The notes under the pieces: model-generated
The model's input: the letters and a program-made list of their open reading frames with translations, nothing else
What the model was told of the DNA's origin: nothing
Database searches by the model: none
DNA from: Frankineae bacterium MT45
GTDB lineage: Bacteria > Actinomycetota > Actinomycetes > Mycobacteriales > Jatrophihabitantaceae
DNA: 64,000 nucleotides
Assembly: GCA_900100325.1 (NCBI GenBank)
Contig: LT629697.1
Span: 2,043,423 to 2,107,422 of the forward strand
Reading direction: 5' to 3'
Position numbers and translations under genes: made by a program
In this document: positions 9,729-64,000 of the stretch, piece after piece
How the letters are laid out: the number at the start of each line of letters is the position of its first letter
How positions within the stretch are numbered: the first letter of the stretch is position 1

Positions 9729-9811
9729 TTTGGGCTACCTCGTTAATAGTGGCTGAACAGCGGTCATCTAATAACTTGCTCTGCTGCGGCCAATATGTCT
9801 ACTTAAAGCGA

Positions 9812-11055: not shown

Positions 11056-11062
11056 GACGGGC

Positions 11063-11698: not shown

Positions 11699-11720
11699 TG
11701 GGAGGCGATCTGGGGAGATC

Positions 11721-11741
11721 CTGAGTTGATTCTCAGATTTT
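11721..11741 (+). terminator. Small hairpin followed by T-run
   Basis: CTGAG (11721-11725) pairs with CTCAG (11732-11736) and is followed by ATTTT, 23 bp after the hydrolase stop. The stem is only five base pairs, so this is a weak terminator candidate. Confidence 0.3.
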
Positions 11742-11849
11742 GGGGTGGCGTAACACCATGAACATGGGCCACAATGGTAGGCACGCGTACCACTGGCTTC
11801 AGGCGAGACGTTGGGGAAGACGATTTCGTCGACGAAGCGGAGGTGTGCG

Positions 11850-30126: not shown

Positions 30127-33100
30127 ATGAGGGTAGGGGACGAGTGCGTGCCTGCGGGCCGCTCTAACCGTCCTCTTCGCATACTCAGACTCGGACCGCT
30201 CACCTCGTTTGTCGCCTTCGTTGTGGTGCTCGCGCTCACCTTCGCGCTGGCCCCGTTGGCGTCGGCGTTCACTACGACCGCCGCCCCCACCTCGACCATC
30301 ACGCGGGCCACCGTCACGGTGAATCTGCCGCTGCCGCTGGTCGCTCCACGTCCCTCGCCGGCCGTCGCCGCGAAGCGCGCGGTGGCCGCCGTTCACTCGA
30401 AGGCCACGCCGAAAAAGGTGGCCTCGACGAAGGTCGTCTATCGTTCGACATCAGGCCAGACAGTCAGCAAAACTCAGGTAAAACTTGCCGCAACGCCGGC
30501 CGTCAATCCAACGATCAGGGTCATCTCGCGACCGACGAAGCCGGCTACGTTGACCCCGTCGATCGGTGGGAATCCCTCCTGCGTCAGCCACTCGAACGAC
30601 GCCAAGCCGCAGACGACGACCACCACCACCGACGGCACCACGACGACCAGTTCGTCGAGCTCGAGCAGCTCCAGCAGCACGCTGACCTGCGGCCCGACTT
30701 CGCACGCAACACCGACCCCGGCGCCGACCTCCTCACCGGCGGCGTCGCCGACGCCAGCCGTGACTCCGCAGCCCACCCCGACCGCGACCCCGGATCCGAC
30801 CCCGGCCCCCACTCCGGTGGCGACACCGGACCCGACGCCCGCGCCGACTCCGGTGGCGAGTGTCGAGGCGACGCCGGATCCGACACCGGTTGCTACACCC
30901 GCTCCGGTCGCCACGGCGACTCCCACGGCTCCGGTCGCGACACCTGATCCGGTCGCCACGGCAACCCCGGCTCCAGCTCCGACGCCGACCGACCCGGCGG
31001 CCACCCCGGCCCCGGCCACGCCGGCACCTGGTGCATCCCCGACTCCGGCCCCTACTCCCGCACCGGTTGGCAGCGCTCCGGCGACGCCGTGGAACTACGA
31101 GGCAACGGGTTCGGGCGTACACAACATCTCGGTACGGGTCAGCGGCGGGAACCTGCTCGTTATCGATAACGGCACCGTCAGCAGCCGGCCGCTCGACAGC
31201 GTCTCCGGGCTATCCATCTCGGGCAGCGCCGCCTCCGCCAAGAACCTGAGCATTGACCTCTCCGGCGGCTCGATCACCGCGCCGATCTCATTCGTCGGCG
31301 GTACCGGCAGCAACGCAGTCGCCGTCGGTGCCGGGCAACTCGACTGGAGTATTGACGCCTCGCACGGCGGCAGCGTTGCCGGCGCCGGGCTCGCCTCGCT
31401 GACCTACAGCGGCGTCTCCGCGGTCCAAGCCGGAGGCGGCAGCAACACCCTGCGCGGACCCTCCTCGGACACGACCTGGAACATCACCGGCTCGAACGCG
31501 GGCTCGGTCGACGGGCAGAGCTTTGCCGGCTTCGGCAGCCTTGTCGGTGCCGCTGACAATCGAGACACATTCGTCGTCTCGCATGGTGGTCGGCTGAGCG
31601 GCTCGCTGGACGGCGGCGCCGGTGGTTTCGACACGCTCGTCCTCGACGGGGTCGGCGGCGACGTCACCTCTGTGCCCTCAGGGTCGCAGTCGGGGTCGGT
31701 CGTCTTCGAGGGCAGCCCGATCGTGTACGTGGGCCTCGAACCGATCACGATCACCGGGACGGCCAACCTCGTCGTCACCGGTACCGCCGCCGGAGACACC
31801 CTCCAGGTCGGACCGGACCCGAACGTGGCCGGAAACCTGAAAGTGTCCAGTACCACCGGATCGATGGAGAGCGTCTCGTTCGCGATTCCCACCGTGTCGC
31901 TGACGATCTCCGACCTGGCCGGCGGGGTGACCATCGTCGTGATCGGCAACCTGGTCATGCACGGCGTCAACCTCGAGATCGACGCGACGACGATCACGGT
32001 CAACGCCGGCGTCACGATCGACACGACCAAGCCGGGTCACGACGGCACGGTGACCCTCAAGGCGTCGGACGCCCAGACCGCTACTGACCCGGCCGCCGCA
32101 TCGGTCTCGCTGCTCGGCGCCACCATCCGCGCCGGGAACGTCGACCTCGAAGCGACCGCCTCGGACGTTCCCACGTCGACCACCCTGGTGCCCGGCGTCG
32201 CATCCACCACCGGTTCCTCGACCGCGTCGGTCGCACTCAACGGTGCCTCCGCGATCATCTCCAGCGGTGACGTCACTGTCCGCGCCGCTTCGTCAGTGAA
32301 GGCGTCGGTGAGCGTCAACGGTGTCGGCGCGAGCACCGCGGTCGATGCCGCCCTAGCGCGGGCCAACATCAGCAGCCAGGCCAGCGCCCACATTTCGGGC
32401 ACCACCTCGATTCAGGCGGCCGGCCTGCTGCAGGTCCTCGCTGTGAACACGGTTGCGGTGAACACCACCGCCGACGCCTCGACCGCCTCGGCCGGTGCCG
32501 GCATCGCGCTCGCCACCGTCGTCGCCGATACCGCCGCCTTCATCGACACAGCCAGTACGACCGGCGTCAGCGCCGGCAGCATCCTGGTCGCGGCCGACTC
32601 CAACAACGCCATCGTCACGACGGCCAAGGCCAGCCCCGGAGGCTCGACGGCCAACGGGCAGAGCCCGGACGCGAACACCGCGACCGCGGCCAAGCCCGGC
32701 GGCTACGCCAACACCCCCTCCGGCTCGGTTGGCATCGCCGGCGCCCTCGCCTTCACCAACCTCACCCCGACGACCAGCGCCTTCATCGCCCCGAAGGTCG
32801 CCGGCCTCACGGTTACCGCCACCAATCCGACGGGCGCCGGCGGCACAGCGCCGATCGTCGTCCATGCAGCGACCGGCGGGACGTCCACCTCGGACGCCGA
32901 CGGTACTGCCGTCGGCGGAAGCGCGGCCGGTGTCGGGAACGCGGTCGCCGTCAACCTCGCCACTGTCACTGATCGCGCCTTCGTCGCCAATGTGACGGTG
33001 AAGGCGGCGATCCTGAAGGTGGAGGCGTTGTCGCAGCCGCAGACGGCAGGCGCACACAATGCGTACGCCGCGATGTCCACCTCCGGAGCGGGTGGGGCGG

Positions 33101-36100: not shown

Positions 36101-39100
36101 CGGCGTCGGCGGGTGGGGCGCCGGAGAACTCGGGTGCTGGCGGTGCGTCCGGATCGGGCGTGGACGATCAGGTCGCGGCCGAACGCTCCAATGCTGATTC
36201 GACCGCAACGGCCAATGGTGGCAAGGGTTCCGGCACGACGACGACGCCGTCGGCCTCAACTTCCGGTGGGAAGGTGTCGGTTGCCGCGGCGGTCGGCATC
36301 AACCTCGCCACCACAAGTTCGCTGGCGACCCTGGTCGGGACCGGACTGACGCTGACATCGGGCGGCTTGGTCACCTTGGCGTCGTCGGCGAACACGGATG
36401 CTTCGGCCAGCGCGGATGGTTCAGCCACCTCGGGCACCACGGCGACGATCGGCGCCGGGGTTGCGATCAACCTTGCCAACGTCACGAACACGGCGTCGGC
36501 TCCAGCTGGGGACACGATCAACGCGAAGTCCCTGACGGTGAGCGCGACCGAGACGACAGTCGGCACGGACACCCAGAACACCTACGGCGCGGCTTCGGTG
36601 GCGGGTGCTGGGGGCGGAAAGATTTCGGTCGCCGGGTCGTTGGCGCTCAACATCGTCAACCAGACCACGAGTGCATTGGTCGGTGCGACGGTGACGCTGA
36701 CCGGTGGCGACGTGATCGTCACGGCGGTCAGCAGTGCCTCTTCGACGGTCACCGCGTTCCCAACAGCGGGTGGCGTCACGTCGACCAGTGTCGGCATCGG
36801 TGCCAGTGTCGGGCTGAACCTGATCACCGACTCCACCACCGCGTCCGTCGCGAATGGTGTTGCCCTCACGGGCGCCAGGAACGTCACCCTCACGGCGACC
36901 GCGACCGACGCAGCCACGACATCGGCCAAGATGGGCGCTGCCGGTGGCAGTGTTGCGTTGACGCCGGCGGTAGCGGTGACGATCGGCAACGTCACTACGT
37001 CCGCTTCGGTCGGCACCGGGACGCTGCTCTCGCTGACGGGTGCGTTCGCGGCGAATGCGGTGCAGACGGCGTCGTCGGCCACGTCGGCTGGTGCGACCGC
37101 GACCGGTGCGTCGACAGCGGCCGTCGGGGTGGGTGTTGCCCTGAATATCGCGAACGATTCGGTCTCGGCGACGACGGCCCGCTCCATCACGGCCGGTGGG
37201 AACCTCACTCTGAGCGCCTTCGGTTCGTCGGCTAGCTCGGCGAGTGCGTCGGCGTCTGCGGGTGGGGCTCCGGAGAACAGTGGTAGCGGCGGTAGCGGTG
37301 GCTCCGGCGTGGATAGCCAGGTTGCGGCCGAGCGCTCCAACGCTGACTCCACGGCAACGGCCAATGGTGGCAAGGGGTCCGGCACCACTGCGACCCCGAG
37401 TGCGTCGACGTCGGGTGGAAAGGTCAGCGTCGCGGCGGCGGTTGGCATCAACCTCGCCACCACCAGCTCGCTGGCCACTCTCGTCGGGACCGGCCTCGCA
37501 CTCACCTCCGGGGCGCTGGTCACGCTGGCCAGTTCGGCGAACACCGATGCAGCGGCGAGCGCTGACGGTTCGGCAACCTCCGGCACGACGGCAACGATCG
37601 GGGCCGGGGTAGCGATCAACCTCGCCAACGTCACCAACACGGCTTCTGTCCCGGCCGGCAGCAGCGTCAAGGCTCATGACCTGACGGTGAGCGCGACCGA
37701 GACCACGGTCGGCACCGACACCCAGAACACGTATGGTGCGGCGTCGGTGGCCGGTGCGGGCGGCGGGAAGATCTCGGTCGCCGGCTCCTTGGCGCTCAAC
37801 ATCGTTAACCAGACCACGAGTGCATTGGTCGCCGCGACGGTGACGCTGACCGGTGGCGACGTGATCGTCACCGCGGCCAGTAGCGCATCCTCGACGGTAA
37901 CCGCGTTCCCGACCCCGGGCGGCGTCACATCGACGAGCGTCGGTGTCGGTGCCAGCGTCGGGTTGAACCTGATCACCGACTCGACGACCGCCTCCGTAGC
38001 GAATGGTGTTGCGTTGACGGGTGCTCGCAACGTCACCATCACCGCTACCGCAACCGACGCAGCCACCACATCGGCGAAGATGGGCGCAGCCGGCGGCAGT
38101 GTTGCCTTGACGCCGGCGGTGGCGGTGACGATCGGGAATGTCACCACTTCTGCTTCTGTCGGTACCGGGACGCTGCTGACCCTGACAGGCGCGTTTGCTG
38201 CGAATGCGGTGCAGACGGCCTCGTCGTCTACGTCGGCTGGTGCTACGGCGACCGGGGCGTCGACGGCCGCCGTTGGTGTCGGTGTTGCCCTGAATATCGC
38301 GAATGATTCGGTGTCGGCGACGACGGCCCGCTCGGTCACGGCCGGCGGAAACCTGACGCTGAGCGCCTTCGGCTCGTCGGCTAGCTCGGCGAGTGCGTCG
38401 GCGTCGGCGGGTGGGGCCCCGGAGAACAGCGGCGGCGGTGGCAGCGGTGGTTCCGGCGTGGATAGCCAGGTCGCGGCCGAACGCTCCAACGCTGACTCCA
38501 CGGCAACCGCCAATGGCGGCAAGGGATCCGGCACTACTGCGACCCCGAGCGCATCGACCTCCGGTGGGAAGGTCAGCGTCGCCGCCGCCGTCGGGATCAA
38601 CCTGGCCACCACATCCTCGCTCGCCACCCTCGTAGGAACGGGACTCGCACTCACCTCCGGCGGGCTGGTAACGCTTGCCAGCTCGGCCAACACCGATGCG
38701 TCGGCGAGCGCGGACGGTTCGGCCACCTCGGGCACGACGGCAACGATCGGCGCCGGGGTAGCGATCAACCTGGCGAACGTCACGAACACGGCGTCGGCTC
38801 CGGCTGGGGACACGATCAACGCGAAGTCCCTCACGGTCAGCGCGACGGAGACCACGGTCGGGACCGACACCCAGAACACCTACGGCGCGGCGTCGGTGGC
38901 GGGTGCGGGTGGCGGCAAGATCTCCGTCGCCGGGTCGCTGGCGCTGAACATCGTCAACCAGGCGACCAATGCGTTGGTCGGTGCGACGGTCACGCTCACC
39001 GGCGGCGATGCGACGCTCACCGCGGCCAGCAGCGCTGCGTCGACGGTCACCGCCTTCCCGACGCCAGGCGGAGTGACTTCCACGAGCGTCGGCATCGGTG

Positions 39101-57100: not shown

Positions 57101-60100
57101 GGATCATCAGTGCTGGCGGCACCATCCCGATCGCCACCATCGCCGGTCGCACCCACGCCGAGTTGGGTGACGTGCTGCAGAGCCAGGGCCTCACCGTGGC
57201 CGCCTCGGCCAGCAACAACGCCACGGCCACCTCGGAGATCATCGAGGTCGGGTTCATCGTCGGTGGGTACGCCGGCTCCGACGCCGAGGTCACCAGCGAC
57301 GCCGCCGTCGACGCCCTGGTCGACGGCAGTGCCAGCACCGTCAACGCCGGTGGTGGGGCCGTCGCGGTCACCGCGACCTCGACCGACCACGCCACCGCCA
57401 CCCCGTCGCAGATCGCGGTCGGCGGGTACAGCCTCTCGGCGCTCACCCCGACGGCGAAGATCGGCGCCCACACCAACGCCGCCTTCAACGGCGGGGGCAC
57501 CACCTCCGGCTCGTTCCTGGTCGGCGCCAACGGGCAGAACGTCGCGATCGCCACGGCCAAGGTCGCCAGCTTCCACCTCGCCGGCGGCTCCGGCGTGATC
57601 GTCGACGCCGAGGTGCTGGCTGGTGCCGATGTGACCGCCTCGGTCGCCAGCAGCGCCACCATCACCGCCTCGGGCGGGGTCACCGTCCAGGCCGTCCTCA
57701 CCGCCGACGGCAGCGGTCACCAGAACTTCGCCTCGGCCAGCGCTGAGAGCGCCAGCGGCGGGCTGATCGACGCCGGGGTCTACGTCGGTACCGCCACCGT
57801 GGCCGGTGCCGTCACCGCCACCCTCAACGGTGCGGTGACCACGTCGGCGGCCATCACCGTGAAGGCCGCCGGCGCCAACGACGCCGAGGCGAGCACCCGG
57901 ACGGTCGGCATCGGACTCTTCACCGTCACCGGAGCCGGTGTGGTCGCCAGCGTCACCTCGGCGGCCGGCGTCACCGCGCAGATCGGGAACCGCACCATCA
58001 GCTCCACCGGCGCGATCCAGGTCCTCGCCAACTCGGGGAACACCGCCAACGCCAGCACCGACGCGGCGAACATCGGCCTCATCTCCGGCAGCGTCAGCAT
58101 CCCGACGGCCACCGTCGCCGCCGCCACGCTGGCGAGCAGCGGCGCCCCGATCAGCAACGCCGGCTCCTTCACGGTCAGCGCCGGTGGGAACAACAGCGCC
58201 TCCGCCACCTCCGGGATCGTCGCCATCGGGCTCATCACCGGCGGCGGCGCCGGGGCTGACGCCGAGGTGCTCGCCTCGGCCGCGGTCACCGCCCAGGTCA
58301 CCTCGTCCGCGAGCAGCGTCCAGGTCAGCGGCGCCATCTCTGTGAGCGCCACCTCGACCGATCACGCGACCGCCACCCCGTCGCAGCTGGCCGCCGGCGC
58401 CATCAACCTGGTCGCGCTGCTGCCGACGGCGAAGGTGGCCGCCCCGACCACGGCCTCCTACGCGGGTGGAACGACCAGCTCGGGCAACTTCACCGTGTCG
58501 GCCAGCGGGCAGAACATCGCCGTCGCCACCGTCGACGTGAAGAACTTCGGCATCGTCGGAATCACCGGCGTCTCGGTGGATGCCGAGGTGCTGGGGTCGG
58601 CCGACGTGAACGCCACCGTCGCCGCCAACACCGCGCTCACCGCGACCGGGGCGGTTCTCGTCTCAGCCACTCTCACCCCGGACGGCTCCGGGCACCAGAA
58701 CTACGCGGCGGCGAAGGTCTCCAGCACCAGCGGCGGCCTCATCACCGGCGGTATCTTCTTCGCCAAGGCGCAGGTCGGTGGCGCGGTCGGGGCGGCGCTC
58801 AACGGCGCCGTGCTGGCCTCCACGCAGGCCACCGTCAAGGCGAGCGGGGCGAACACGGCCGAGGGTACGACGCTCTCGATCGGCATCGGTCTCGGCTCGA
58901 TCAGCGGCTCGGCGGTCGATGCCGAAGTGCTCAACGGCGCCAACGTCTCGGCGGCGACCGGCGGTGGCGCACTCGCCTCCAGCGGCCTGGTCAACGTGCT
59001 GGCGAACGGCACGAACACGGCGACCGCCCTGAGCGACTCGGTGAACGGCGGCTTCATCGCCGGCAGCGCCAACATCCCGATCGGGCGGACGGCCGGGGCC
59101 GTCACCGCCGAATTCGACGGACGGTTGAGCGGTGCCACCGGCCTCATCGTCAAGGCCGTCGGCGCGAGCAGCGCCGCCTCGACCTCGGGAGCGCAGGGCG
59201 GTGGCTTCATCTCCGCCCACGACTCCTCGCCGACCGCGACCGTCGACTCGGCCAGCCTCACCTCGGCCATCATCGGCTCCGGCGCCCTGCTGAACGCACC
59301 CAGCGCCGCCGTGTCGGTGATCGCGAACGCCACCAACAGCGCTACCGCGTCGGGTGGTTCGGTGAACGGTGGGCTGGCCACCGTCGACGTGAGCAACCCG
59401 GTCGCCAACGACTTCGGTGTCACCCAGGCCAAGATGCTCGGCAGTGCCCACGGCGCCAGCAACACCGCCCCCGGCGCCGGCTCCATCTCGGTGCAGGCCT
59501 CCGGCAGTGACGCCAGCACCGCCCTCATCAGCGACACCAGCGTCGCCGGTGTGGGCGTCGGCAGCGCCGGGGCGACGGCCACCACGACCACCACCGTCGA
59601 GGCCGACCTGGCCAGCAGCGGATCGGTGATCACCACCGTCGGCGACATCAGCGTCGGGGCCGCCTCCTCGCCGGTCGCCACGTCGGCCTCGCGCAGTACC
59701 TCGGCCGGCATCCTGCTGAACATCGACGGGAACACCTCGACCATCAACAACACGCCGACGGTCAACGTGAACATCGCGCCGAACGCGCAGATCTACTCCG
59801 GCGGCAGCATCACCGTCACCGCGCAGCAGAACACCACCGCGCCGCCGCCGTCGGGGAACACCGGCTTCTTCGACGGCAGCACCGGGGTGAACACCGGCAC
59901 CAACACCATCACCTTCACCGCCCCGCACGGCCTGCTCACCGGTAACACGGTGACGTACACCAACGGCGGCAACCCGAACGTCGGTGGACTCACCAACAAC
60001 GCGCAGTACAACGTCTTCGTGGTCAGCGCCAACAGCGTGCAGCTGGGGAGCACCTTCGGTGGCGCCAACATCGACCCGACCACCGGCACCATCTCCTTCG

Positions 60101-63100
60101 GGCGGATGGTCGGCCCGACGTTCGTCCCGCTCAACCACAACCTGCACGAGGGTGACCTGGTCATCTACGAGGTTCCCTCCGGCGGTAGCGCGATCCCGGG
60201 TCTGACGCCGGGTGGCCTGTACCGGGTGCACGTCGTCGACGCCTCGCACATCCAGCTCTTCGACCCGAACGCCTCGACCGCGGTGATCAGCCTGACCGGG
60301 GCCAATGTCTCGGGAAACACGATCAATGCGACCAACCCGTTCGGCAACGGCACCCCGGTGACCTACACCCCGCCGGCCCCGATCGCGATCTTCACCAGTG
60401 GCCTGGTGAGCGTGAACGTCGATGGCAGCAACAACCCGATCTACCCGGTGCAGAACAACAGCGACAACCGCATCCTGATCCACAACCACGGCCTGGCCAC
60501 CGGCACCGCGGTGGTCTACAACGGCGGCAGCGACCCGATCGGTGGCCTCACCAACGGCGTCACGTACTTCGTCATCAACGTCAACTCCAACCAGATCCAG
60601 CTGGCCGACTCCCTCTGCCACGCGACCGGAGCCTGCGTTGACGGCAGCAACAACCCGATCCCGCAGCAGGCGATCACGCTGACGCCCGACAAGTCGGCGG
60701 CCGGTGAGGCGGTCACCCAGGGCCTCTACGCACCGGGGCAGCAGCCGATCGGTGGCCTCGTCGCCGGCGGCCGGTACTACATCGTCAACGCCACCGGAAC
60801 CTCCTTCCAGCTGGCCGCCACCCCGGGCGGTTCGGCCATCACCCTGGACGGAACGGGCCGGGTCGGCACCAGCACCATCAAGCTGGCCCCGATCGCGATC
60901 GGTGTCGGCACCGGTGACCAGAACCTGATCGTCGATCTCAGCTCGACCAGCAGCGGCACCCAGCAGCTGGCCCCGGTCGGCATCACCGGCCCGGCGGCCG
61001 GCGGCGGAGTCCTCTCGACGGCCACCGTGACCGGCAGCGGCGGCGGCTTCATCAACTCCACGCACGCCAACACCAACGCCACCGAGACGGTCACCGTCCA
61101 CGTCGAGGTGGGCGCCAACACCTCGCTCACCACCGTCGGCTCGATCACCATCACGACCAACTCCTCAACCGGGGTCAGCGCGAACTCCTCCAACGGCGGC
61201 GGCGGCCTCATCTCGGTCGGCAGTGCCCAGGCCAAGGCGACGGCCACCGGCAACACCACGGTGAAGGTCGACGCCGGCACGAACCTCACCGCCGGAGACA
61301 GCGTCAAGATCGCCCCGCTGAACTTCGTGCAGGCCATCTCGGCCGCCAACGCCAGCGGTGGTGGTCTGGGAGCCGGGGTCAGCGCCTACGCGAAGTCGAC
61401 CGACAACTACACGACGCTCACCGACATCGCCGGGAACATCACCGCCGGGAACAACCTCAACATCGAGGCCCACACCGCGGCCAACGGTGACGTCTCGACC
61501 AGCGCCGAGGGGGGTGGCCTGGGCGTCGACGCGCACGCCGGGGACGACGGCGACGGCGACAACAACCTCGACATCACCGGCTCCACCAACGTCCACCTCG
61601 AGTCCGGCACCCACCTCACCGCCGACAACGTGCAGGTGACCGCCCAGACCGACAGCATCACCGCTCACAACAACGGCCACACTCACGCCTCGGCCCTCGG
61701 GGCGGCCTCGGATGCCGAGGCGACCATCAACGACAACACCGGCCAGCAGGTGCTCATCGACGGCGGCACGAAGATCGTCGGCTACGAAACGGTCGGCATC
61801 GCGGCCAACGCGGTCAACCTGAGCTTCGCGGCCAACACCGACGCGCACTGCAGCTGCTTCGGCGGTGACACCAACACCACCGAGAACATCACCTACAACA
61901 GCGACTCCGACGTCACCGCGAACGCGACCGCGATCATCCGCACCGGCCACCTCGACGTCGAGGTCGTGCAGAACGTCATCAACTGGAACACCGACCACGA
62001 CAACGACGGCGCGACCTTCGACGGCGGCGGAAACCACGGCGGCTCCAGCAATAACGCCCAGCGCACCATCCACTGGAACGCCGACGTCTACCTGCACACC
62101 CCTGATCCGCAGCTCGTCGTCGACGTGACCGGCAAGATCGTGAAGCTGTACGGCGTGACCGTCACCGACGACCTGGGTAACAGCTACGGGCTGGGTGACA
62201 CGATCCCGACCGGGCGCATCATCGAGGTCGGCAACATCATCAACGACGGGGGAGCGACGGCGCTCTTCAACGCGAGCGTCTCGCAGACCGAAGGTGGCTC
62301 GACGGCGCCGGCCAGCGTCATCGACGGCAGCCAGGGGAAGTTCGTCCAGCAGAACACCTTCGACTTCGTGAAGATCTTCAACTACTCCAGCCGGGCCCTG
62401 ACGACCCACATCATCAACGTCGTCAACCTGAACAACCCGGGTGCAACGGTGACCATCCAGCTCAACCAGATCCCGTTCACCTTCCACGTCGGCCCGCCGA
62501 TCTTCACCCCGACCGCGGTCGACATCGAGAACTTCGCCGGCAGTGTCGCCAACTCCGACGTCACCATCGACGGGCTCATCTACAACCCGATCGGAAGCAC
62601 CGTCGTCAACAACGGCCGCGGGAACATCTTCGCCGGCCCCGACAAGCCGCTGATCGAGACGAACACGCTGGTCCTCGAGGCCCCGGCCGGCACCATAGGT
62701 GTGCTCTTCAACCTCTTCGGGATCAGCATCCGCATTCCGATCCCGGTGCTGCTCGTGCAGAGCGACTACATCGTCGACAACGTTGACCCGACCCGCTTCA
62801 TCTCCCTCGTCGCCGAGGCGCTGGGCAACGTCGTCCTCGACATCACCTCGATCCTGCGGGCGAACCAGACGCCCTTCGCGCCAACGCTTGGGCCGATCCA
62901 CGCCGGTGGCAACATCGACATCGTCGTGAACGACAGCGCCTGGGGCAATGACGCACCGGTCTGGCCGTCGGAGGCGATCCAGGTCAACCTGCACAACCCG
63001 CCGGACCTCGTGACCAACCTCCCCGGCACCGGTCTGTACCAGGTCTTCTTCCGCCCGGATCAGCCCTTCGTCGACAACGACCCGGTGCTGGCCGTCTTCG

Positions 63101-64000
63101 GTACCGTCCTGACGCCGATCGACAGCACCTACAACTTCACCGATCTCAGCGCCGGCAACAACATCAATGTCCGGCACGTGGCTACCGGTACCCAGGTCAC
63201 CTTCGTCGTGCACTCCAACGTGGACGCCACTCTCTTCGAGATGAGCAACCCGGCGGTGCAGCTCTCCCAGAGCGACCAGGTGGGCGAGATCGACCTCTTC
63301 ACCAACGGGCGCATCACCGACACCGAGACGGTGAGCGATCTGCGGGTTGGGACCATCACCTCGACCAACAACGACGTGGTGCTCATCGCCGCCGACAACC
63401 CGGCCTCGATCTTCGACGTCGCAACCACCGACGACGGCGTGGCCCGGGTGACCGGCAACAACATCACGCTGCTGGCTCTCCACGGCGGCATCGGCTTCGT
63501 TACCCCGACCGTCAACTACCTCGAAATTCATTCGTCGAACGCCGCCGTCGGTGCCCTGCTGGCGCTGGCCAACCTCGGCATCTACATCGAGCAGACCCAG
63601 GGCAACCTCAACGTCTCGCTGGCCGACTCGCTCACCTCCGATGTCGCGCTTGTCACCGACGCCGGGTCGATCCTCGACAACCACACGGCGGCCGGGGCGA
63701 GCGTCGTCGGCCGCAGCATCGACCTCATCGCCCATGGCGGCTCGATCGGCACCTTCACCTCGGATGCCTCGGGCGATGTGCGGATCGACTCGAGTAGTTC
63801 AGCTACCGGCCGCCTCTACGCGTTTGCCGACGGATTCGGCGGCGACCAGGTCGGGGCGGTCGCGCTCTCCGGTGGCGGCGTCTACATCACCGAGACGAAT
63901 GGCCCGTTGAACGTGCTGCGGGCCCAGTCCGTGCACGGTGACGTCCGGCTCCGGGTTCCCTTCGTCACCGGCCGCACCGACGCCGACCTGACTCTGCTCG
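30127..64000 (+). CDS. Giant secreted beta-strand-repeat protein, adhesin-like (3' end outside window)
   Basis: One frame runs from ATG 30127 to the last base with no stop: 11,291 codons, still open. A signal peptide (hydrophobic FVAFVVVLALTFALAPL, cleavage near ASA|FT at residue 47) follows; GTG 30148 is an alternative start. Residues about 50-190 are basic and Thr/Ser-rich, and 193-317 a Pro/Thr/Ala stalk (TPAPTPVATPDP-like). Then come hundreds of 50-65-residue beta repeats of the type VGVGVALNIANDSVSATTA...GGNLTLSA, similar to LktA-type filamentous adhesins. Residues 1385-6779 are 14 units of about 383 residues; 8760-9734 are 325-residue units. HGL..TG modules lie at 7779-7956 and 9928-10243, acidic loops near 10473 and 10623, and the visible end is filamentous-haemagglutinin-like. 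No catalytic motif is seen. Likely a parallel beta-solenoid surface or matrix fibre; the anchor is not visible. Confidence 0.9.
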   Translation, partial: MRVGDECVPAGRSNRPLRILRLGPLTSFVAFVVVLALTFALAPLASAFTTTAAPTSTITRATVTVNLPLPLVAPRPSPAVAAKRAVAAVHSKATPKKVASTKVVYRSTSGQTVSKTQVKLAATPAVNPTIRVISRPTKPATLTPSIGGNPSCVSHSNDAKPQTTTTTTDGTTTTSSSSSSSSSSTLTCGPTSHATPTPAPTSSPAASPTPAVTPQPTPTATPDPTPAPTPVATPDPTPAPTPVASVEATPDPTPVATPAPVATATPTAPVATPDPVATATPAPAPTPTDPAATPAPATPAPGASPTPAPTPAPVGSAPATPWNYEATGSGVHNISVRVSGGNLLVIDNGTVSSRPLDSVSGLSISGSAASAKNLSIDLSGGSITAPISFVGGTGSNAVAVGAGQLDWSIDASHGGSVAGAGLASLTYSGVSAVQAGGGSNTLRGPSSDTTWNITGSNAGSVDGQSFAGFGSLVGAADNRDTFVVSHGGRLSGSLDGGAGGFDTLVLDGVGGDVTSVPSGSQSGSVVFEGSPIVYVGLEPITITGTANLVVTGTAAGDTLQVGPDPNVAGNLKVSSTTGSMESVSFAIPTVSLTISDLAGGVTIVVIGNLVMHGVNLEIDATTITVNAGVTIDTTKPGHDGTVTLKASDAQTATDPAAASVSLLGATIRAGNVDLEATASDVPTSTTLVPGVASTTGSSTASVALNGASAIISSGDVTVRAASSVKASVSVNGVGASTAVDAALARANISSQASAHISGTTSIQAAGLLQVLAVNTVAVNTTADASTASAGAGIALATVVADTAAFIDTASTTGVSAGSILVAADSNNAIVTTAKASPGGSTANGQSPDANTATAAKPGGYANTPSGSVGIAGALAFTNLTPTTSAFIAPKVAGLTVTATNPTGAGGTAPIVVHAATGGTSTSDADGTAVGGSAAGVGNAVAVNLATVTDRAFVANVTVKAAILKVEALSQPQTAGAHNAYAAMSTSGAGGAAMVGVAGSLAVNVATLTTDASIAATNPVTISGGDVQLAATSSNNNDVQALPGSTGATVVGIGAAVALNVVNDRTNAGLANGAVMTGTRNLTLQATTVDPTTTTAKGGAFAGRIAIAPVVAITTSNVTTTANVGTGSTLTISGTLSATATQTVPVVTTATGAVDASGAAVGPVLAVTFATDFVQATTLRNVVAGAAVTFLATGATSTQSQATASATGGPGDNGNQPAPAAQLAGARSLADSAAPTTGGALTGGAGGTGGVPSPPAPQTPDGVVTVAAAITVNVHTSSADASLSGVSVVTGGLLTLHATLNTSALSNASGAAAARGPPSGVGTIAAAVAINVANDSVHADVAAGATIAARGLSLNAAVGPTDASGAASTSDNFTTTATSGAGGGGKISVAGSVAIQTVSLTTSASLVSTAGAAAPTVTLSGGTADASFSATSSATTKTSALSADSGPGTAKTGIGASFALGIVNDATTAAIGDGAILTGARGLTLTATATDTMTTAATNGASSPDVALAPVVAISTSNVTTTASVGLLAAGTLTLTGAFVATATQTAAATTSATGATQAGSASVGVSTALTFAHHSVAATTARSIKSGGALTLSAIGSSIDLSTATASAGGAPGDGSAGAPAGGVDGQIAGDRSVADTFAPAGGGTGSTAAPSASTSKGKVSVAAAIGLTLATTSSSATLVGTGLSLSAGGLITLASSAGTAAGTIADGSASGAASLGIGAGVAINLANVTNTAALPAGDSISSATGLVVSATLTPGVSPQPAAGGHMFGALASSGAGGGGVSVAGSLALNIVNLSTTARVDGSVAVTATGSVAITAGSSSMATARALPTGAGTTTTGSLGFGASVALDLVTDTTVAAIGNAATLTGAGAVTLSAVSADVATTIAMMGAAGGKVALTPAVAVTIGNVSTLASVGTGALLLVTGAFAANAVQTASSSTSAGATASGASTAAVGVGVALNIANDSVSATTARSITATGALTLSAFGSSISSASASASAGGAPENSGAGGASGSGVDDQVAAERSNADSTATANGGKGSGTTTTPSASTSGGKVSVAAAVGINLATTSSLATLVGTGLTLTSGGLVTLASSANTDASASADGSATSGTTATIGAGVAINLANVTNTASAPAGDTINAKSLTVSATETTVGTDTQNTYGAASVAGAGGGKISVAGSLALNIVNQTTSALVGATVTLTGGDVIVTAVSSASSTVTAFPTAGGVTSTSVGIGASVGLNLITDSTTASVANGVALTGARNVTLTATATDAATTSAKMGAAGGSVALTPAVAVTIGNVTTSASVGTGTLLSLTGAFAANAVQTASSATSAGATATGASTAAVGVGVALNIANDSVSATTARSITAGGNLTLSAFGSSASSASASASAGGAPENSGSGGSGGSGVDSQVAAERSNADSTATANGGKGSGTTATPSASTSGGKVSVAAAVGINLATTSSLATLVGTGLALTSGALVTLASSANTDAAASADGSATSGTTATIGAGVAINLANVTNTASVPAGSSVKAHDLTVSATETTVGTDTQNTYGAASVAGAGGGKISVAGSLALNIVNQTTSALVAATVTLTGGDVIVTAASSASSTVTAFPTPGGVTSTSVGVGASVGLNLITDSTTASVANGVALTGARNVTITATATDAATTSAKMGAAGGSVALTPAVAVTIGNVTTSASVGTGTLLTLTGAFAANAVQTASSSTSAGATATGASTAAVGVGVALNIANDSVSATTARSVTAGGNLTLSAFGSSASSASASASAGGAPENSGGGGSGGSGVDSQVAAERSNADSTATANGGKGSGTTATPSASTSGGKVSVAAAVGINLATTSSLATLVGTGLALTSGGLVTLASSANTDASASADGSATSGTTATIGAGVAINLANVTNTASAPAGDTINAKSLTVSATETTVGTDTQNTYGAASVAGAGGGKISVAGSLALNIVNQATNALVGATVTLTGGDATLTAASSAASTVTAFPTPGGVTSTSVGIGASVGLNLITDSTTASVANGVALTGARNVTLSATATDAATTSAKMGAAGGSVALTPAVAVTIGNVTTSASVGTGTLLTLTGAFAANAVQTASSSTSAGATATGASTAAVGVGVALNIANDSVSATTARSITAGGPLTLSAFGSSSSSASASASAGGAPENSGSGGSGGSGVDSQVAAERSNADSTATANGGQGSGTTATPSASTSGGKVSVAAAVGINLSTTSSLATLVGTGLTLTSGGLVTLASSANTDASASADGSATSGTTATIGAGVAINLANVTNTASLPAGNSMKAHDLTISATVTTITLPTGGTDTQNTYGAASVAGAGGGKISVAGSLALNIVNQSTSALVGATVTLTGGDATLTSASSASSTVTAFPTAGGVTSTSVGVGASVGLNLITDSTTASVANGVALTGARNVTLASTGTDAATTSAKMGAAGGSVALTPAVAVTIGNVTTSASVGTGTLLTLTGAFAANAVQTASSSTSAGATASGASTAAVGVGVALNIANDSVSATTARSITAGGNLTLSDFGSSASSASASASAGGAPENSGSGGSGGSGVDSQVAAERSNADSTATANGGKGSGTTATPSASTSGGKVSVAAAVGINLATTSSLATVVGAGLTLTSGALVTLVSSANTDASASADGSATSGTAATIGAGVAINLANVTNTASAPAGDTINAKSVTVSATETTVGTDTQNTYGAASVAGAGGGKISVAGSLALNIVNQTTSALVGATVTLSGGDVIVTAASSAASTVTAFPTAGGVTSTSVGVGASVGLNLITDSTTASVANGVALTGARNVTLSSTATDAATTSAKMGAAGGSVALTPAVAVTIGNVTTSATVGTGALLTLTGAFAANAVQTASSSTSAGATASGASTAAVGVGVALNIANDSVSATTARSITAAGNLTLSAFGSSSSSASASASAGGAPENSGSGGSGGSGVDSQVAAERSNADSTATANGGKGSGTTATPSASTSGGKVSVAAAVGINLATTSSLATVVGTGLTLTSGALVTFASSANTDASASADGSATSGTTATIGAGVAINLANVTNTASAPAGDTINAKSLTVSATETTVGTDTKSTYGAASVAGAGGGKISVAGSLALNIVNQTTSALVGATVTLTGGDVIVTAASSASSTVTAFPTAGGVTSTSVGIGASVGLNLITDSTTASVANGVALTGARNVTLTATATDAAATSAKMGAAGGSVALTPAVAVTIGNVTTTATVGTGTLLGLTGAFAANAVQTASSSTSAGATATGASTAAVGVGVALNIANDSVSATTARSITAGGNLTLSAFGSSSSSASASASAGGAPENSGSGGSGGSGVDSQVAAERSNADSTATANGGKGSGTTATPSASTSGGKVSVAAAIGINLATTSSLATLVGTGLALTSGALVTLASSANTDAAASADGSATSGTTATIGAGVAINLANVTNTASLPAGNALKAHDLTISATETSVTLPTGGVDAQSTYGAASVAGAGGGKISVAGSLALNIVNQTTTALIAGPVTLTGGDATLTAASSASSTVTAFPTAGGVTSTSVGVGASVGLNLITDSTTASVVNGVVLTGARNVTLSATATDAASTSAKMGAAGGSVALTPAVAVTIGNVTTSATVGTGTLLGLTGAFAANAVQTASSSTSAGATATGASTAAVGVGVALNIANDSVSATTARSITAGGNLTLSAFGSSSSLASASASAGGAPENSGGGGSSGSGVDSQVAAERSNADSTATANGGKGSGTTTTPSASTSGGKVSVAAAVGINLATTSSLATLVGTGLTLTSGGLVTLASSANTDASASADGSATSGTTATIGAGVAINLANVTNTASAPAGDTINAKSLTVSATETTVGTDTQNSYGAGSVAGAGGGKISVAGSLALNIVNQTTSALVGATVTLTGGDVTITAASSASSTVTAFPTAGGVTSTSVGIGASVGLNLITDSTTASVANGVALTGAGNITLSATATDTSTNAAKMGAAGGSVALTPAVAVTIGNVTTSATVGTGTLLGLTGAFAANAVQTASSSTSAGATATGASTAAVGVGVALNIANDSVSATTARSITAGGNLTLSAFGSSASSASASASAGGAPENSGSGGSGGSGVDSQVAAERSNADSTATANGGQGSGTTTTPSASTSSGKVSVAAAVGINLATTSSLATLVGTGLTLTSGGLVTLASSANTDASASADGSATSGTTATIGAGVAINLANVTNTASAPAGDTINAKALTVSATETTVGTDTQNTYGASSVAGAGGGKISVAGSLALNIVNQTTSALVGATVTLSGGDVIVTAASSAASTVTAFPTPGGVTSTSVGIGASVGLSLITDSTTASVANGVALTGARNITLSATATDTSTNAAKMGAAGGSVALTPAVAVTISNVTTSATVGTGTLLTLTGAFAANASQTAGALTSAGATATGATTAAIGVGLALTVANHSVSATTARSITAGGNLTLSAFGSSGSNAIASASAAGAPENSGGGGSSGSGVDNQVASERSNADSTATANGGKGSGTTTTPSASTSGGKVSVAAAVGINLATTSSLATLVGTGLTLTAGGLVTFASSANTDAAAGADGSATSGTTATIGAGVAINLANVTNTATLPAGDNVKAHDLTVSATETTIGSDTQSTYGANSVAGAGGGKISVAGSLALNIVNQTTTALVAGPVVLTGGDATLTAASSASSTVSAFPTPGGVTATSVGIGAAVGLNLITDVTSASLPDGVTLTGARNVNLSATAVDLATTAAKMGAAGGKVDITPAVAITLSNVTTSATIGSLPANGVLTLTGAFAAKASQTAGALTSAGATATGATTAAIGVGLALTVANHSVSATTARSINAGASLSLSAFGSSGSNAIASASAAGAPENSGSGGSSGSGVDNQVASERSNADSTATANGGKGSGTTATPSASTSGGKVSVAAAVGINLATTSSLATLVGTGLTLTSGGLVTFASSANTDAAAGGDGSATSGTTVTIGAGVAINLANVTNTASLPAGNNVKAHDLTVSATETAVGSDTQSTYGADSVAGAGGGKISVAGSLALNIVNQTTTALVAGPVVLTGGDATLTAASSAKSKTTAEPTVGGVTATSVGIGASVALDLITDVTSASLADTIPITGARNITLTASATDLATTEAKMGAAGGKVDITPAVAITLSNVTTSATIGTGALLTLTGAFAANASQTAVALTTAGATATGATTAAIGVGLALTVANHSVSATTARSITSGGNLTLSAFGSSGSNAIASASAAGAPENSGSGGSSGSGVDNQVASERSNADSTATANGGQGSGTTTTPSASTSGGKVSVAAAIGINLATTSSLATLIGTGLTLTAGGLVTFASSANTDAAAGADGSATSGTTATIGAGVAINLANVTNTASLPAGNTLKAHDLTISATETSVTLPTGGVDAQSTYGADAVAGAGGGKISVAGALGLNIVNQTTTALIASPVTLTGGDATVTAGSSATSKTTAEPTPGGVTATNVGVGAAVALNLITDLTTATLADGITLVGARNVTLTATATDLATTEAKMGAAGGKVDITPAVAITLSTVTTTTSIGTLPGNGTIVLTGAFAANASQTAGAATTAGAVATGGTSASIGVGLALNLLKHYVTSTTGRNITAGGAIAFSAFGSSVDSANASASASGAPGKSSGGAPSGGVDGQVATERSNATSTDMANGGGGTSTSATPSASTSDGKVAVAAAVALNIADVSATATLPASLALIAGGIVSLRTSENVDGTVKSDGTAVKAEDVGVGAAVSINLVTITNQASIGRLSSVTSNGFDAEATMTNLNGDTVHTFDVEADAGAGSKDVGVAGAVSLNLVTDRTEAFVTTTASVNAGSGDISLIAQNLRSDSSKAKADASIGGGGKVGVGASVAINVLTTNITRAEVEDNASLTGGRNVTLIATSAEPVVNQVTAGSAGSSVAVSPAVGINITTNVTTARLGTPGTGSLVATGDVQIRATHTGSSTITGDAKAASDSVAVGAIIAVNVVTDTTLGATARNITGASIAITATTQDSGAANVTASAQGSQKGTGSNSDQQASSQVNNTPSTSGQTGTLPSASDNVASGNSQASSQSGNSGSGVGVGAAVSVNWVTDSNTASVAAGLAILSTGAVVVAATNETDATGKAMGIALKLGSTNIGAAVGLNVASITNTGSIGAGATITGSSLVVSAVTPAQAENDFIVWGISAAGGDGDASVAGSVGVQVITFHSTASIGSGSHVTLTGALTMNSTAPTGLQNIAASGALSLGGDAGVGAAVAVNIIDLTTLTFIDSSPTSVTRIDAGGAMSLNAAQSIGALVPDIPKITTPAVSSVAIAGAAGTSGVAIGGSVIVDVINLTTQAYIAAAALVNQAGPATPGQSLSLTSSDSTTLVNLAGAVALSGGDVGVGLGLVVDVINKDTRSYIGQGAHVVVGGNVAIGATTSEDITEIAVDAAASTEAAVTGSFIVLVMNQGSGEGNQTPGTRAYIDGSGNQPTVVHAGGNLAIAAADNASNLGLYAGNVTIGGNAGVGISSSILIRSGIVDAYIGAGSDIEAKGTSGLSVAASQNEGIKIFAIGGTAGGDAGVAGSATVDVLDDTTHAHIDSGVTINANNSGASSTNGIALAASDTTTILGIAGALAAGGSAGIGAGVDVETLSKDTQAFIATGVNANANGNVTVDSTSSEQVTSVSASVSLGGSVAVSVNAGVSVFTIVTKAFIGGLCEAGTSAACGGFRSTINTRGSARVSANEQLTLNVVAGNLSVSGSAAVGAAGAVPIVNKTTTAFIGDDSTVNALATNDASLTVATGTHNEQYTDIRFTPTSAVEGDHRTLNLGYVHGFTEGQQVIYDNGGGQNIIGLIGGNPYYVHVVSPTEVQLSATSGGPAITLTAPARGGESQRLVATNSAVTPQNSSPYFTPSLDVVGNSINLPYDMALSTGDAVVYGSGSEAPIGGLIDGHTYYAIVTGAHTIQLAATKCQATGTCSGIAQQAITLNAAAAGSGRSHSIVPSGSTPSGNAAQVTGIHTVLNGTQGGFRGVAVTASNSDDVSGVGISGAISAGASVSVGGSVNVVTSNTAAFIGKFATINSPNSGASSSQSVLVAAGNDYHQLMVSGVLAVGVYAGVAPSASVGLIHLNTDAYIGAQSTVNAAQDVVVNANAKDSIVSVALAGGGGIAGIAGAVSVISLNTHTYADTGFGDTILAGNNLLVGSRDDTKVIMVAGGVAGGIVGIGAGVGVTLATKDTQAFISAGSTVDALATQPGITLAGIYANKLNGDSFTTTSFNGLAVQAGSSEDIFGLTLGLAGGFVGVAGGIGITLLHATTIAFIDSNPQAPTLVNTKAGGGAAQSVNVAAADATKTLTIAGALAGGAVGIAGGVDVGVVDTTTKAYLGIGATVHAKNNVDVYALSTKDIASYAVSVGGGFVGAAGSVSVWTVGTQPNPNYSNGPGPSTNGLSSNGDPQGEADSQATGSGGFQGILSGTSGSSTSRSNTLIKSHTGDATSSIQSNSPTAGQVSGGVTNPGLPEGTVAAIGQGVTIVAGGSVDVQAVENFGFAGLAGSASGGFVGIGISLVIANLDSHADASIGSNATVSAGGDIAVGATTNENSSALAFGGQAGAVAVGGQIAVINDLSDQNAHIDDNVTIPQAGGVIRVTANGNRTVTPSAIGGQVGAIAVGAAVAVSSIDGDTTATVGNVTIGSASPVGGVSVSANSTINAPAIAYSIGVGAVGVGAGVAITTIDGTTAASFGGHGPVAGAVSVTASGTNTISAYVLNVKAGGFAAGLTIATATQNRTTAANFTSTANISAGGAVTVSATSQNHATATTPGGTAGGITIGALLPTATVNGSTTATVDGQITASSAITVSAAGQNQADAEATIISISVGGLSGVNADAEVTAQAAIRATVSKSSTIASTGLVSVSAASTPDGSGNADYARTRIFSGAGGGISIGVFVAQAIVAAPVSAQLNGTVSNSGSVSVSAGGGNRADGQTLSFALGAFGVSVSGIQALIATTAVTDAIVLGGSVTSAGAVSVTATSHNTATADTDTAGVGIISAGGTIPIATIAGRTHAELGDVLQSQGLTVAASASNNATATSEIIEVGFIVGGYAGSDAEVTSDAAVDALVDGSASTVNAGGGAVAVTATSTDHATATPSQIAVGGYSLSALTPTAKIGAHTNAAFNGGGTTSGSFLVGANGQNVAIATAKVASFHLAGGSGVIVDAEVLAGADVTASVASSATITASGGVTVQAVLTADGSGHQNFASASAESASGGLIDAGVYVGTATVAGAVTATLNGAVTTSAAITVKAAGANDAEASTRTVGIGLFTVTGAGVVASVTSAAGVTAQIGNRTISSTGAIQVLANSGNTANASTDAANIGLISGSVSIPTATVAAATLASSGAPISNAGSFTVSAGGNNSASATSGIVAIGLITGGGAGADAEVLASAAVTAQVTSSASSVQVSGAISVSATSTDHATATPSQLAAGAINLVALLPTAKVAAPTTASYAGGTTSSGNFTVSASGQNIAVATVDVKNFGIVGITGVSVDAEVLGSADVNATVAANTALTATGAVLVSATLTPDGSGHQNYAAAKVSSTSGGLITGGIFFAKAQVGGAVGAALNGAVLASTQATVKASGANTAEGTTLSIGIGLGSISGSAVDAEVLNGANVSAATGGGALASSGLVNVLANGTNTATALSDSVNGGFIAGSANIPIGRTAGAVTAEFDGRLSGATGLIVKAVGASSAASTSGAQGGGFISAHDSSPTATVDSASLTSAIIGSGALLNAPSAAVSVIANATNSATASGGSVNGGLATVDVSNPVANDFGVTQAKMLGSAHGASNTAPGAGSISVQASGSDASTALISDTSVAGVGVGSAGATATTTTTVEADLASSGSVITTVGDISVGAASSPVATSASRSTSAGILLNIDGNTSTINNTPTVNVNIAPNAQIYSGGSITVTAQQNTTAPPPSGNTGFFDGSTGVNTGTNTITFTAPHGLLTGNTVTYTNGGNPNVGGLTNNAQYNVFVVSANSVQLGSTFGGANIDPTTGTISFGRMVGPTFVPLNHNLHEGDLVIYEVPSGGSAIPGLTPGGLYRVHVVDASHIQLFDPNASTAVISLTGANVSGNTINATNPFGNGTPVTYTPPAPIAIFTSGLVSVNVDGSNNPIYPVQNNSDNRILIHNHGLATGTAVVYNGGSDPIGGLTNGVTYFVINVNSNQIQLADSLCHATGACVDGSNNPIPQQAITLTPDKSAAGEAVTQGLYAPGQQPIGGLVAGGRYYIVNATGTSFQLAATPGGSAITLDGTGRVGTSTIKLAPIAIGVGTGDQNLIVDLSSTSSGTQQLAPVGITGPAAGGGVLSTATVTGSGGGFINSTHANTNATETVTVHVEVGANTSLTTVGSITITTNSSTGVSANSSNGGGGLISVGSAQAKATATGNTTVKVDAGTNLTAGDSVKIAPLNFVQAISAANASGGGLGAGVSAYAKSTDNYTTLTDIAGNITAGNNLNIEAHTAANGDVSTSAEGGGLGVDAHAGDDGDGDNNLDITGSTNVHLESGTHLTADNVQVTAQTDSITAHNNGHTHASALGAASDAEATINDNTGQQVLIDGGTKIVGYETVGIAANAVNLSFAANTDAHCSCFGGDTNTTENITYNSDSDVTANATAIIRTGHLDVEVVQNVINWNTDHDNDGATFDGGGNHGGSSNNAQRTIHWNADVYLHTPDPQLVVDVTGKIVKLYGVTVTDDLGNSYGLGDTIPTGRIIEVGNIINDGGATALFNASVSQTEGGSTAPASVIDGSQGKFVQQNTFDFVKIFNYSSRALTTHIINVVNLNNPGATVTIQLNQIPFTFHVGPPIFTPTAVDIENFAGSVANSDVTIDGLIYNPIGSTVVNNGRGNIFAGPDKPLIETNTLVLEAPAGTIGVLFNLFGISIRIPIPVLLVQSDYIVDNVDPTRFISLVAEALGNVVLDITSILRANQTPFAPTLGPIHAGGNIDIVVNDSAWGNDAPVWPSEAIQVNLHNPPDLVTNLPGTGLYQVFFRPDQPFVDNDPVLAVFGTVLTPIDSTYNFTDLSAGNNINVRHVATGTQVTFVVHSNVDATLFEMSNPAVQLSQSDQVGEIDLFTNGRITDTETVSDLRVGTITSTNNDVVLIAADNPASIFDVATTDDGVARVTGNNITLLALHGGIGFVTPTVNYLEIHSSNAAVGALLALANLGIYIEQTQGNLNVSLADSLTSDVALVTDAGSILDNHTAAGASVVGRSIDLIAHGGSIGTFTSDASGDVRIDSSSSATGRLYAFADGFGGDQVGAVALSGGGVYITETNGPLNVLRAQSVHGDVRLRVPFVTGRTDADLTLL
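42688..42990 (+). repeat. 303-bp tract nearly identical to 45001-45303
   Basis: These two stretches, two units apart (offset 2313 bp = 1164 + 1149), differ at three positions by my reading and share unusual synonymous choices such as gattctgtgtcg and tccattaccgcc. The same part of the unit between them (near 43850-44160) has different choices there. This points to duplication of a two-unit block or gene conversion. Confidence 0.8.
45001..45303 (+). repeat. Partner copy of the 303-bp tract
   Basis: Second copy of the tract at 42688-42990; similarity breaks off abruptly on the 3' side (tcgagttcg in one, tcggctagc in the other). Confidence 0.8.
53461..53994 (+). repeat. Two HGL..TG-type modules inside the giant protein
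   Basis: About 80-90-residue modules of the form YVHGFTEGQQVIYDNGG...IGLIGGNPYYVHVVSPTEVQL and MALSTGDAVVYGSG...IGGLIDGHTYYAIVTGAHTIQL. The second ends in a Cys pair (KCQATGTCSG) likely to form a disulfide outside the cell. They interrupt the beta repeats; the same module type returns at 59908. Confidence 0.75.
56404..59328 (+). repeat. Second tandem array, exact 975-bp (325-residue) period
   Basis: Matching landmarks recur at exactly 975 bp. The TS(T/Q)(D/N)HATAT motif is at 56404, 57379 and 58354, with a degenerate match at 59329. DGSG is at 56731, 57706 and 58681. N-T-A-(T/N)-A is at 57064, 58039 and 59014. Unit boundaries are therefore 56404, 57379, 58354 and 59329. Sequences are clearly diverged, unlike the first array, yet show no length change. 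Each unit has about six beta sub-repeats, with DAEV marking two of them. Confidence 0.85.
59908..60855 (+). repeat. Four further HGL..TG-type modules
   Basis: Successive modules PHGLLTGNTVTYTNGG, NHNLHEGDLVIYEV, NHGLATGTAVVYNGG and a shortened GLYAPGQQPIGGL, each followed by a YxVxVxxxxxIQL-type strand. The third carries LCHATGACVDG, a Cys pair with the same five-residue spacing as in the module near 53896. Confidence 0.75.
61543..62010 (+). other. Two acidic Asp/Asn-rich loops, possible calcium sites
   Basis: GDDGDGDNN (codons from about 61540) and TDHDNDGATFDGGG (Asp codons from 61993) carry closely spaced Asp/Asn. The second contains a DxDxDG pattern as in dockerin or thrombospondin type-3 calcium loops. 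Calcium binding is inference. Confidence 0.35.

Follow-up and report, generated by a model that had tools for sequence, protein, structure and literature searches.

Bacteria are already known to have surface proteins and genes in the giant size class treated here (PMC12863079, PMC10066038, PMC11573180, PMC5352709), most bacterial giant genes being annotated as surface proteins or synthases (PMC5352709). The largest planctomycete giant genes, of about 36 kb, fall in the same size class in a different envelope, and are compared here by size (PMC5352709). Omnitrophota carry giant open reading frames (ORFs) of more than 20 kb, some of them bearing domains presumed to serve adhesion, which differ from the present case in reaching 39,678 amino acids, in their many membrane helices, in being mostly poorly conserved and in their envelope (PMC10066038). 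Apilactobacillus Giant1-5 are giant extracellular tandem-repeat proteins, Giant3 being estimated at 0.2 µm; they differ by alpha-helical shafts (Giant1-3), DUF5776 C-termini and sizes of 3,000-8,000 amino acids, and the words "sortase" and "LPXTG" are absent from the main text (PMC12863079). The staphylococcal extracellular matrix-binding protein homologue, a Gram-positive surface protein, measures almost 10,000 amino acids (PMC11573180). The locus described here lies on the single contig (4,228,602 bp, 99.92% complete) of the actinobacterium Frankineae bacterium MT45, where a stretch of 64,000 nucleotides (contig LT629697.1, 2043423-2107422; "the window") was analysed and found to contain most of a giant gene. 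Its product is fairly likely to be a single-chain, cell-wall-anchored giant surface fibre, most likely for attachment. The staphylococcal homologue differs from it in having helical-bundle repeats and a different anchor.

The giant gene and its orthologue in Jatrophihabitans sp. GAS493

The original prediction, made from the window alone, described a single frame open from a signal peptide to the window edge, and the 11,291 codons from the ATG at 30127 indeed contain no stop. Followed past position 64000, the frame ends 4,037 bases beyond the window (window coordinate 68037, genome position 2111459), which gives a gene of 37,911 nt and a protein of 12,636 amino acids, 1.19 MDa and pI 4.5, with abundant Ala, Thr, Gly, Ser and Val and with only 0.13% each of Cys and Trp. 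Within the gene the other two forward frames hold 371 and 118 stops, with longest open runs of 226 and 680 codons. On the opposite strand one frame stays open for up to 1,836 codons, so that openness alone is no proof of a gene. An antisense open frame of 1,737 amino acids (53152-58365, minus strand) is probably a codon shadow of high GC content and a caution against taking long open frames as sole evidence.

The congener Jatrophihabitans sp. GAS493 (4,879,921 bp, one contig) carries at the same locus, and from the same ATG, a stop-free orthologue of 11,874 amino acids, which is two 383-residue units shorter than the MT45 protein. The two proteins are 74-93% identical per 500-column alignment block, and the main alignments of their flanks run colinear, with 77-87% DNA identity. 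The Nei-Gojobori method (NG86), applied to 11,841 codon pairs, gave a synonymous rate (dS) of 0.60, a non-synonymous rate (dN) of 0.080 and a dN/dS of 0.133, with 0.098-0.182 in thirteen blocks of 612-1,000 pairs each; in the repeat array non-orthologous units may have been paired, the ratio being low throughout regardless. The dS values were 0.77-0.91 in blocks at residues 1000-6000 versus 0.38-0.60 from residue 6000 onward. Because of the orthologue in a second genome and the dN/dS of 0.133, the giant frame is real and under selection as a protein, and the view of the original prediction that it forms one intact gene holds, the orthologue being colinear and uninterrupted. Both strains are forest-soil isolates sequenced by PacBio (raw reads SRX2158410 and SRX3048269), and their announcement makes no mention of the giant gene (PMC7498423).

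Three further genomes of the family (G004, G006 and G011) also have the interval from SURF1 to NIF3. It gave no match there to the upstream neighbour or to Band_7 (E<=1e-6), NF012206 had no match in the three genomes, and the C-terminal 1,485 residues as query found nothing in G006 and G011 and only matches to their Ig-like part in G004. The site is therefore variable, the gene having been gained here or lost elsewhere. The distance from the upstream neighbour to SURF1 is about 6 kb in GAS493 (about 3897243-3903190) versus about 0.3 kb in MT45. This divergent neighbour of 396 amino acids (GAS493 counterpart 3896182-3897243) has a signal-like N-terminus, and its C-terminal half is similar to repeats found in numerous proteins of this family. 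A tblastn search with Band_7 and the upstream neighbours found no match in the loci of the relatives that were compared, many of which include little or no flank; an operon partner may still exist.

Repeat architecture and predicted fold

Features of the MT45 giant gene, of its product and of its upstream neighbour (positions in the window; aa, amino acids; HMM, hidden Markov model).
Feature	Position	Strand	Residues	Basis or remark
Giant surface-protein gene	30127..64000, continuing to 68037	+		Open frame, stop, orthologue, dN/dS 0.133
Signal peptide	30127..30270	+	1-48	Read by eye; GAS493 has same start and layout
Pro/Thr/Ser/Ala-rich low-complexity region	30271..31086	+	~49-320	Translation
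N-terminal beta-like region	31087..32721	+	~321-865	No Pfam match
Three diverged 383-aa-type units	32722..36264	+	866-2046	Unit HMM 169, 221, 453 bits
Twelve tandem 383-aa units	36265..50112	+	2047-6662	Repeat comparison, unit model
Degenerate units, onset of widely conserved body	50116..51852	+	6664-7242	Unit HMM
Further repeat body	51001..63999	+		NCBIfam LktA_tand_53 above cut-off
Start of C-terminal part	63580..64000	+	from 11,152	Continues beyond window
Big_1-like stretch			12376-12443	Below Pfam cut-off
Ig_3-like stretch			12481-12552	Below Pfam cut-off
LAATG, then hydrophobic span and Arg-rich tail RRQRLARLD			12599-12603 (LAATG)	
Divergent neighbour, 396-aa protein	28744..29934	-		No Pfam match; neighbour only

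The putative signal peptide, by our reading of the Sec type, has a basic n-region, the hydrophobic core LTSFVAFVVVLALTFALAP and ASA ahead of the likely cut. The original prediction of a giant beta-repeat protein in an actinobacterium is supported. Behind it lies the Pro/Thr-rich region, with short tandem repeats at 30712-30859. The original prediction called this region a stalk, a role that suits it poorly, the C-terminus being the end that would be joined to the wall; it is probably the end distal from the wall. Alignments of relatives by blastp begin with residue 318 for Humibacter and 327 for Geomonas.

The twelve tandem units of MT45 have a mutual identity of 69-97% in protein and 68-87% in DNA. 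GAS493 has ten units, the turnover being by whole units. The DNA identity is 0.83 among MT45 units 1-9 and 0.81 among GAS493 units 1-7, and 0.76 between the genomes; the last units of the array pair across species (0.82). Within each genome the central units resemble one another more closely than they do those of the other genome, which indicates that they are homogenised within each array. Units 1 and 4 of GAS493 are identical at two decimals, which may reflect a recent duplication or an effect of assembly.

The NCBIfam model NF012206 (LktA_tand_53, repeats of 53 amino acids) scored 63 bits in residues 6959-11291 (cut-off 50), 45.1 bits, below cut-off, in residues 1-3000 and had no match in residues 11152-12636, these three stretches being the ones searched. 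A periodicity of 325 amino acids appears in segments of 3,000 residues beginning at residues 7500 and 9000. Colinearity with the relatives extends to about residue 11,934, and residues 11,935-12,598 did not align to five Microbacteriaceae giants compared at full length (blastp, E<=1e-30, at most six pieces each). The Pfam scans took in residues 1-3000 and 6664-12636. No two-partner secretion (TPS) or haemagglutination activity domain was matched in residues 1-3000 (E<=0.01) or 1-900 (E<=0.05), nor the LEPR-XLL motif (NF012209) in residues 1-900. As to a C-terminal beta-barrel of the autotransporter (type V) kind, the C-terminal 1,485 residues gave no match above cut-off and, below it, only Ig/Big-like and BNR ones.

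Two regions were modelled with AlphaFold2, and both models are all-beta. The best-scoring of five models of one 383-residue unit (alignment of 13 units of the protein itself; predicted local distance difference test, pLDDT, 77.3; predicted template modelling score, pTM, 0.78) has strands over positions 1-334, followed by a low-confidence Gly/Ser linker at 335-383. The model of residues 6766-7415 (70-row alignment) has pLDDT 81.5 and pTM 0.85, with a low-confidence insert at positions 234-285 of the piece. In VIA-align, where the matches were weak, the latter matched among the first SufB/SufD (Z 14.0), HxuA (13.6), the EtpA secretion domain (12.2) and the FHA secretion domain (11.1), and the unit model matched SufB/SufD (11.5) and EtpA (9.2), Z values under about 13 for repeats possibly reflecting common arrangement alone, as the tool itself warns. 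All of these we take to be beta-helix or beta-solenoid chains. The two modelled regions are thus predicted to be all-beta and probably beta-helical, in geometry and not as members of one family; by sequence, profiles A1 and A2 found no solved relative at E<=0.1.

Relatives, sorting signal and sortases

Scanning genomes with alignment A1 (region 6766-8406) yielded 332 pattern stretches and 193 relatives, the best 80 of which correspond to 77 loci. Fifty of these were examined further, in 48 genomes (one locus not covered; two loci in one genome), and the giant was matched in all 48. From the actinobacteria 26 giants are listed in 24 genomes, 23 of them with an open frame of 9,593-11,161 amino acids from stop to stop (those of G268 and G271 reach the end of their contig); the remaining three measure 6,860 (contig end), 6,518 plus a piece of 866, and 1,726 plus 1,047 (broken). 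The giants of a Microbacterium strain (G265:C1:1304203-1308857) and of a Microbacterium metagenome-assembled genome (MAG; G257:C9) appear to be broken into separate open frames. In the 24 other genomes the best frames have 4,553-12,129 amino acids, the longest being cut by a contig end. The giant of MT45 is therefore no lone oddity: giants of about 10,000-11,000 amino acids are found in Microbacterium, Humibacter, Leifsonia and other soil actinobacteria. Within its order, NF012206 matched in four of 249 genomes, MT45 included, single six-frame matches all being below cut-off (best 48.8).

A tree of 71 rows, built by a quick method with the Shimodaira-Hasegawa-like approximate likelihood ratio test (SH-aLRT) and no bootstrap, places the actinobacterial rows on one side of a branch (SH-aLRT 98) and in two subclades. 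MT45 and GAS493 group with Humibacter, Leifsonia and Diaminobutyricibacter (SH-aLRT 99); the sister grouping, which includes Humibacillus, has SH-aLRT 94. A Jatrophihabitans MAG of the same family as MT45 falls next to Microbacterium sp. ASV49 in the sister subclade, a placement that speaks against simple vertical descent. Transfer and old paralogy both fit the tree, because Microbacterium jejuense has both types, one giant in each subclade. Two separate giants of 10,100-10,999 amino acids of open frame are present in M. jejuense (G254) as well as in Microbacterium sp. ASV49 (G272). The length in the first subclade, that of MT45, is 10,925 on average with a standard deviation (SD) of 726 (n=13; stop-to-stop frames except for MT45 and GAS493), a mean that leaves out G252 (11,158; upstream extension not coding-like), the broken giants of G257 and G265, the G270 giant at a contig end and the second one in G272 (10,999, subclade not assigned).

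Seven members of the first subclade each have between 13 and 16 near-full-length 383-residue units, and three Gram-negative relatives have 2-4. No unit was listed for Humibacillus, Sinomonas, Desulfoluna and Comamonadaceae, yet blastp aligned unit regions of Humibacillus, Sinomonas and Comamonadaceae. The Gram-negative phyla hold the more distant relatives; the three N-termini searched among these (Comamonadaceae, Geomonas, Bradyrhizobium) all have LEPR-XLL starts over cut-off. A metalloprotease motif HExGHxxG lies near one end of several sister-subclade giants (Humibacillus, Sinomonas and others) and of the Gram-negative Geomonas relative (loci L087/L155, L090/L158, L169-L170, L093, L095, L100 and L080), with Matrixin over cut-off in Sinomonas and Geomonas and below it in Humibacillus; the motif was not seen in the part read of L085, L089 and L092. 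It is absent from the MT45 protein, for which a metalloprotease reading was rejected.

The original prediction had seen no anchor. The C-terminus beyond the window carries an anchor signal of the class E sortase type, in the form of LAATG, a hydrophobic span (Kyte-Doolittle hydropathy, KD, 2.46 over 17 residues) and an Arg-rich tail with four Arg/Lys among the last ten residues, and the genome encodes a class E sortase. LAXTG is the signal assigned to class E sortases (PMC5148588). Five sortase-domain ORFs were found in MT45: one is of class E (483980-484432; NF033747, 256.3 bits, cut-off 160), one of class F over cut-off, a third (a trimmed fragment) of class F below cut-off, and two more are class-E-like below cut-off. 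In the subclade of the MT45 gene, 15 of 15 C-termini seen have LAxTG or LPxTG together with a hydrophobic span of KD 1.9-2.9, fourteen of them with 4-5 Arg/Lys in the last ten residues and one, of Leifsonia (L072), with a single one; the C-termini of L091 (broken) and L097 (contig end) are not among the fifteen. A class E sortase over cut-off was found in 23 of 25 genomes searched, among them all fifteen other genomes with a member of this subclade; none over cut-off was seen in Humibacillus G262 and in MAG G266, for which incompleteness could account.

Two sortase-like membrane proteins of MT45, L040 (3863916-3864140) and L041 (3774417-3774641), are class-E-like at 64.6 and 60.9 bits, below cut-off. 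By eye they seem to be without the catalytic Cys, with TLETA and TFETS at the position of TLTTC in L037, and are possibly inactive sortase homologues. Two further MT45 proteins, L044 (1043040-1043168) and L045 (1766315-1766422), have ends with LSNTG and LASTG, a hydrophobic span and a basic tail, and are candidate sortase substrates by these features.

Proposed function and comparison with known systems

In the model proposed here the chain would be exported N-terminus first through Sec, and the repeats, once outside, would form a row of beta-helical rods connected by flexible Gly/Ser linkers. The class E sortase would cleave LAATG between T and G and link the chain to peptidoglycan, so that the Pro/Thr-rich N-terminus and the N-terminal beta-like region would end up outermost. 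If 25-27 residues form one rung of 0.48 nm, the fibre may be about 0.15-0.25 µm long, a rough estimate, with the 383-residue units as a length-tunable shaft. The most likely function would be adhesion to other cells or to organic matter in solid form; an adhesive role is suggested by the layout and by the likeness to described fibrillar and periscope adhesins (PMC9210967).

A number of results weigh against this model. The five unit models range in pLDDT from 77.3 down to one at 28.9, and the modelling of single units suggested by the original prediction gave the all-beta chain without a match among solved structures; for both modelled regions Foldseek returned no PDB entry at E <= 0.001, the lowest E values being 0.45 and 0.43. 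SufB/SufD rather than adhesins top both VIA-align lists. No adhesive domain exceeded the Pfam cut-off in residues 1-3000 and 6664-12636, and no NCBIfam anchor model was above cut-off for the MT45 C-terminus (LAXTG_small_WW 16.3 bits, cut-off 65). A class E sortase is also found in 8 of 10 genomes in which only the sister type was seen; its presence is needed for the anchoring idea and hardly discriminates. The sister-subclade giants are without a sorting signal, the LAxTG/LPxTG motif occurring in 0 of 9 C-termini seen (in L177, whose counted frame is 76% identical to L178, no LAxTG lies in the last 90 residues), and the repeat body therefore does not need one. The promoter scan found no promoter-like site, and shuffled sequences also predict none.

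The same lack of an adhesive domain would suit an anchored protein that is no adhesin, a structural coat or barrier setting surface hydrophobicity, spacing, or access of phages and predators. Such a coat is on balance rather unlikely: class E sortase substrates known in Actinoplanes are surface-hydrophobicity and morphogenesis proteins (PMC13251363), and the length of the thirteen subclade members is roughly constant, but a repeat shaft with an anchor and a varying unit number is the layout of the fibrillar and periscope adhesins (PMC9210967). Improbable is a matrix protein that is processed and shed, its wall link being only transient; the sister-subclade giants of similar size, without the signal in all nine ends, are presumably secreted free, but the signal is retained in every one of the fifteen ends seen of the own subclade. 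A toxin-delivery or contact-inhibition giant of the CdiA/FhaB type, with a C-terminal effector, would agree with the likeness of the repeats to LktA-type filamentous proteins and with the VIA-align matches to the EtpA and FHA secretion domains. It is very improbable, since the C-terminus consists of weak Ig/Big-like stretches and the sorting signal, the last 1,485 residues matched no toxin domain, no TPS secretion domain was matched in residues 1-3000, and one membrane is presumed; with no effector match this candidate was rejected. An assembly artefact or decaying gene, to which the mean subread lengths of about 5.0 kb for MT45 and 3.5 kb for GAS493 (calculated from the numbers in PMC7498423; shorter than the 13.8-kb array, which makes the exact unit number less sure) and the two identical GAS493 units could point, is very improbable and was rejected on the orthologue, a dN/dS of 0.13 throughout and the flank synteny, the MT45 units moreover differing by 13-32% in DNA, enough for read placement, and long relatives being found in separate assemblies.

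Returning to the anchored adhesive fibre, we found no description of this actinobacterial sortase-anchored giant family in the literature searched, subscription literature being mostly outside reach. It is possible, though more doubtful than the fibre itself, that the family represents an undescribed appendage of soil actinobacteria: a single polypeptide of 1.0-1.2 MDa, anchored by a class E sortase, with a length held at about 10,000-12,600 residues, with gain, loss and homogenisation of whole units, and with a beta-solenoid body shared across phyla whose ends would be exchanged according to the envelope (in Gram-negatives a LEPR-XLL start, here a LAXTG end). If expressed and anchored, the protein would mean that a single-membrane bacterium exports, folds and covalently fixes a chain of 1.2 MDa by ordinary Sec and one sortase. 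If the proposal is true, the sister species with 12 and 10 units would be natural length variants for asking what sets fibre length, and one giant beta-repeat body would have been put to use in several phyla, combined with differing modules for export and anchoring.

Among described systems, the fibrillar and periscope adhesins likewise have a long repeat shaft, a C-terminal sortase-type signal and a variable number of units, but the MT45 giant is about ten times longer than their training-set mean of 1,196 residues (PMC9210967). It also differs from fibrillar adhesins in its shaft of 383-residue units, predicted to be all-beta, and in that the scanned stretches matched neither an adhesive nor a stalk domain of known type above cut-off. 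With the LktA-type filamentous repeat proteins (NF012206) it shares the 53-residue repeats, over cut-off in one stretch. LktA uses the two-partner secretion route, whereas the MT45 giant has a wall-anchor signal and no TPS secretion domain in the scanned stretches. As to the LEPR-XLL giants (NF012209), Gram-negative relatives of the same body score over the LEPR-8K cut-off; the MT45 giant, in which the LEPR-XLL motif was not matched, has a signal peptide and LAATG instead.

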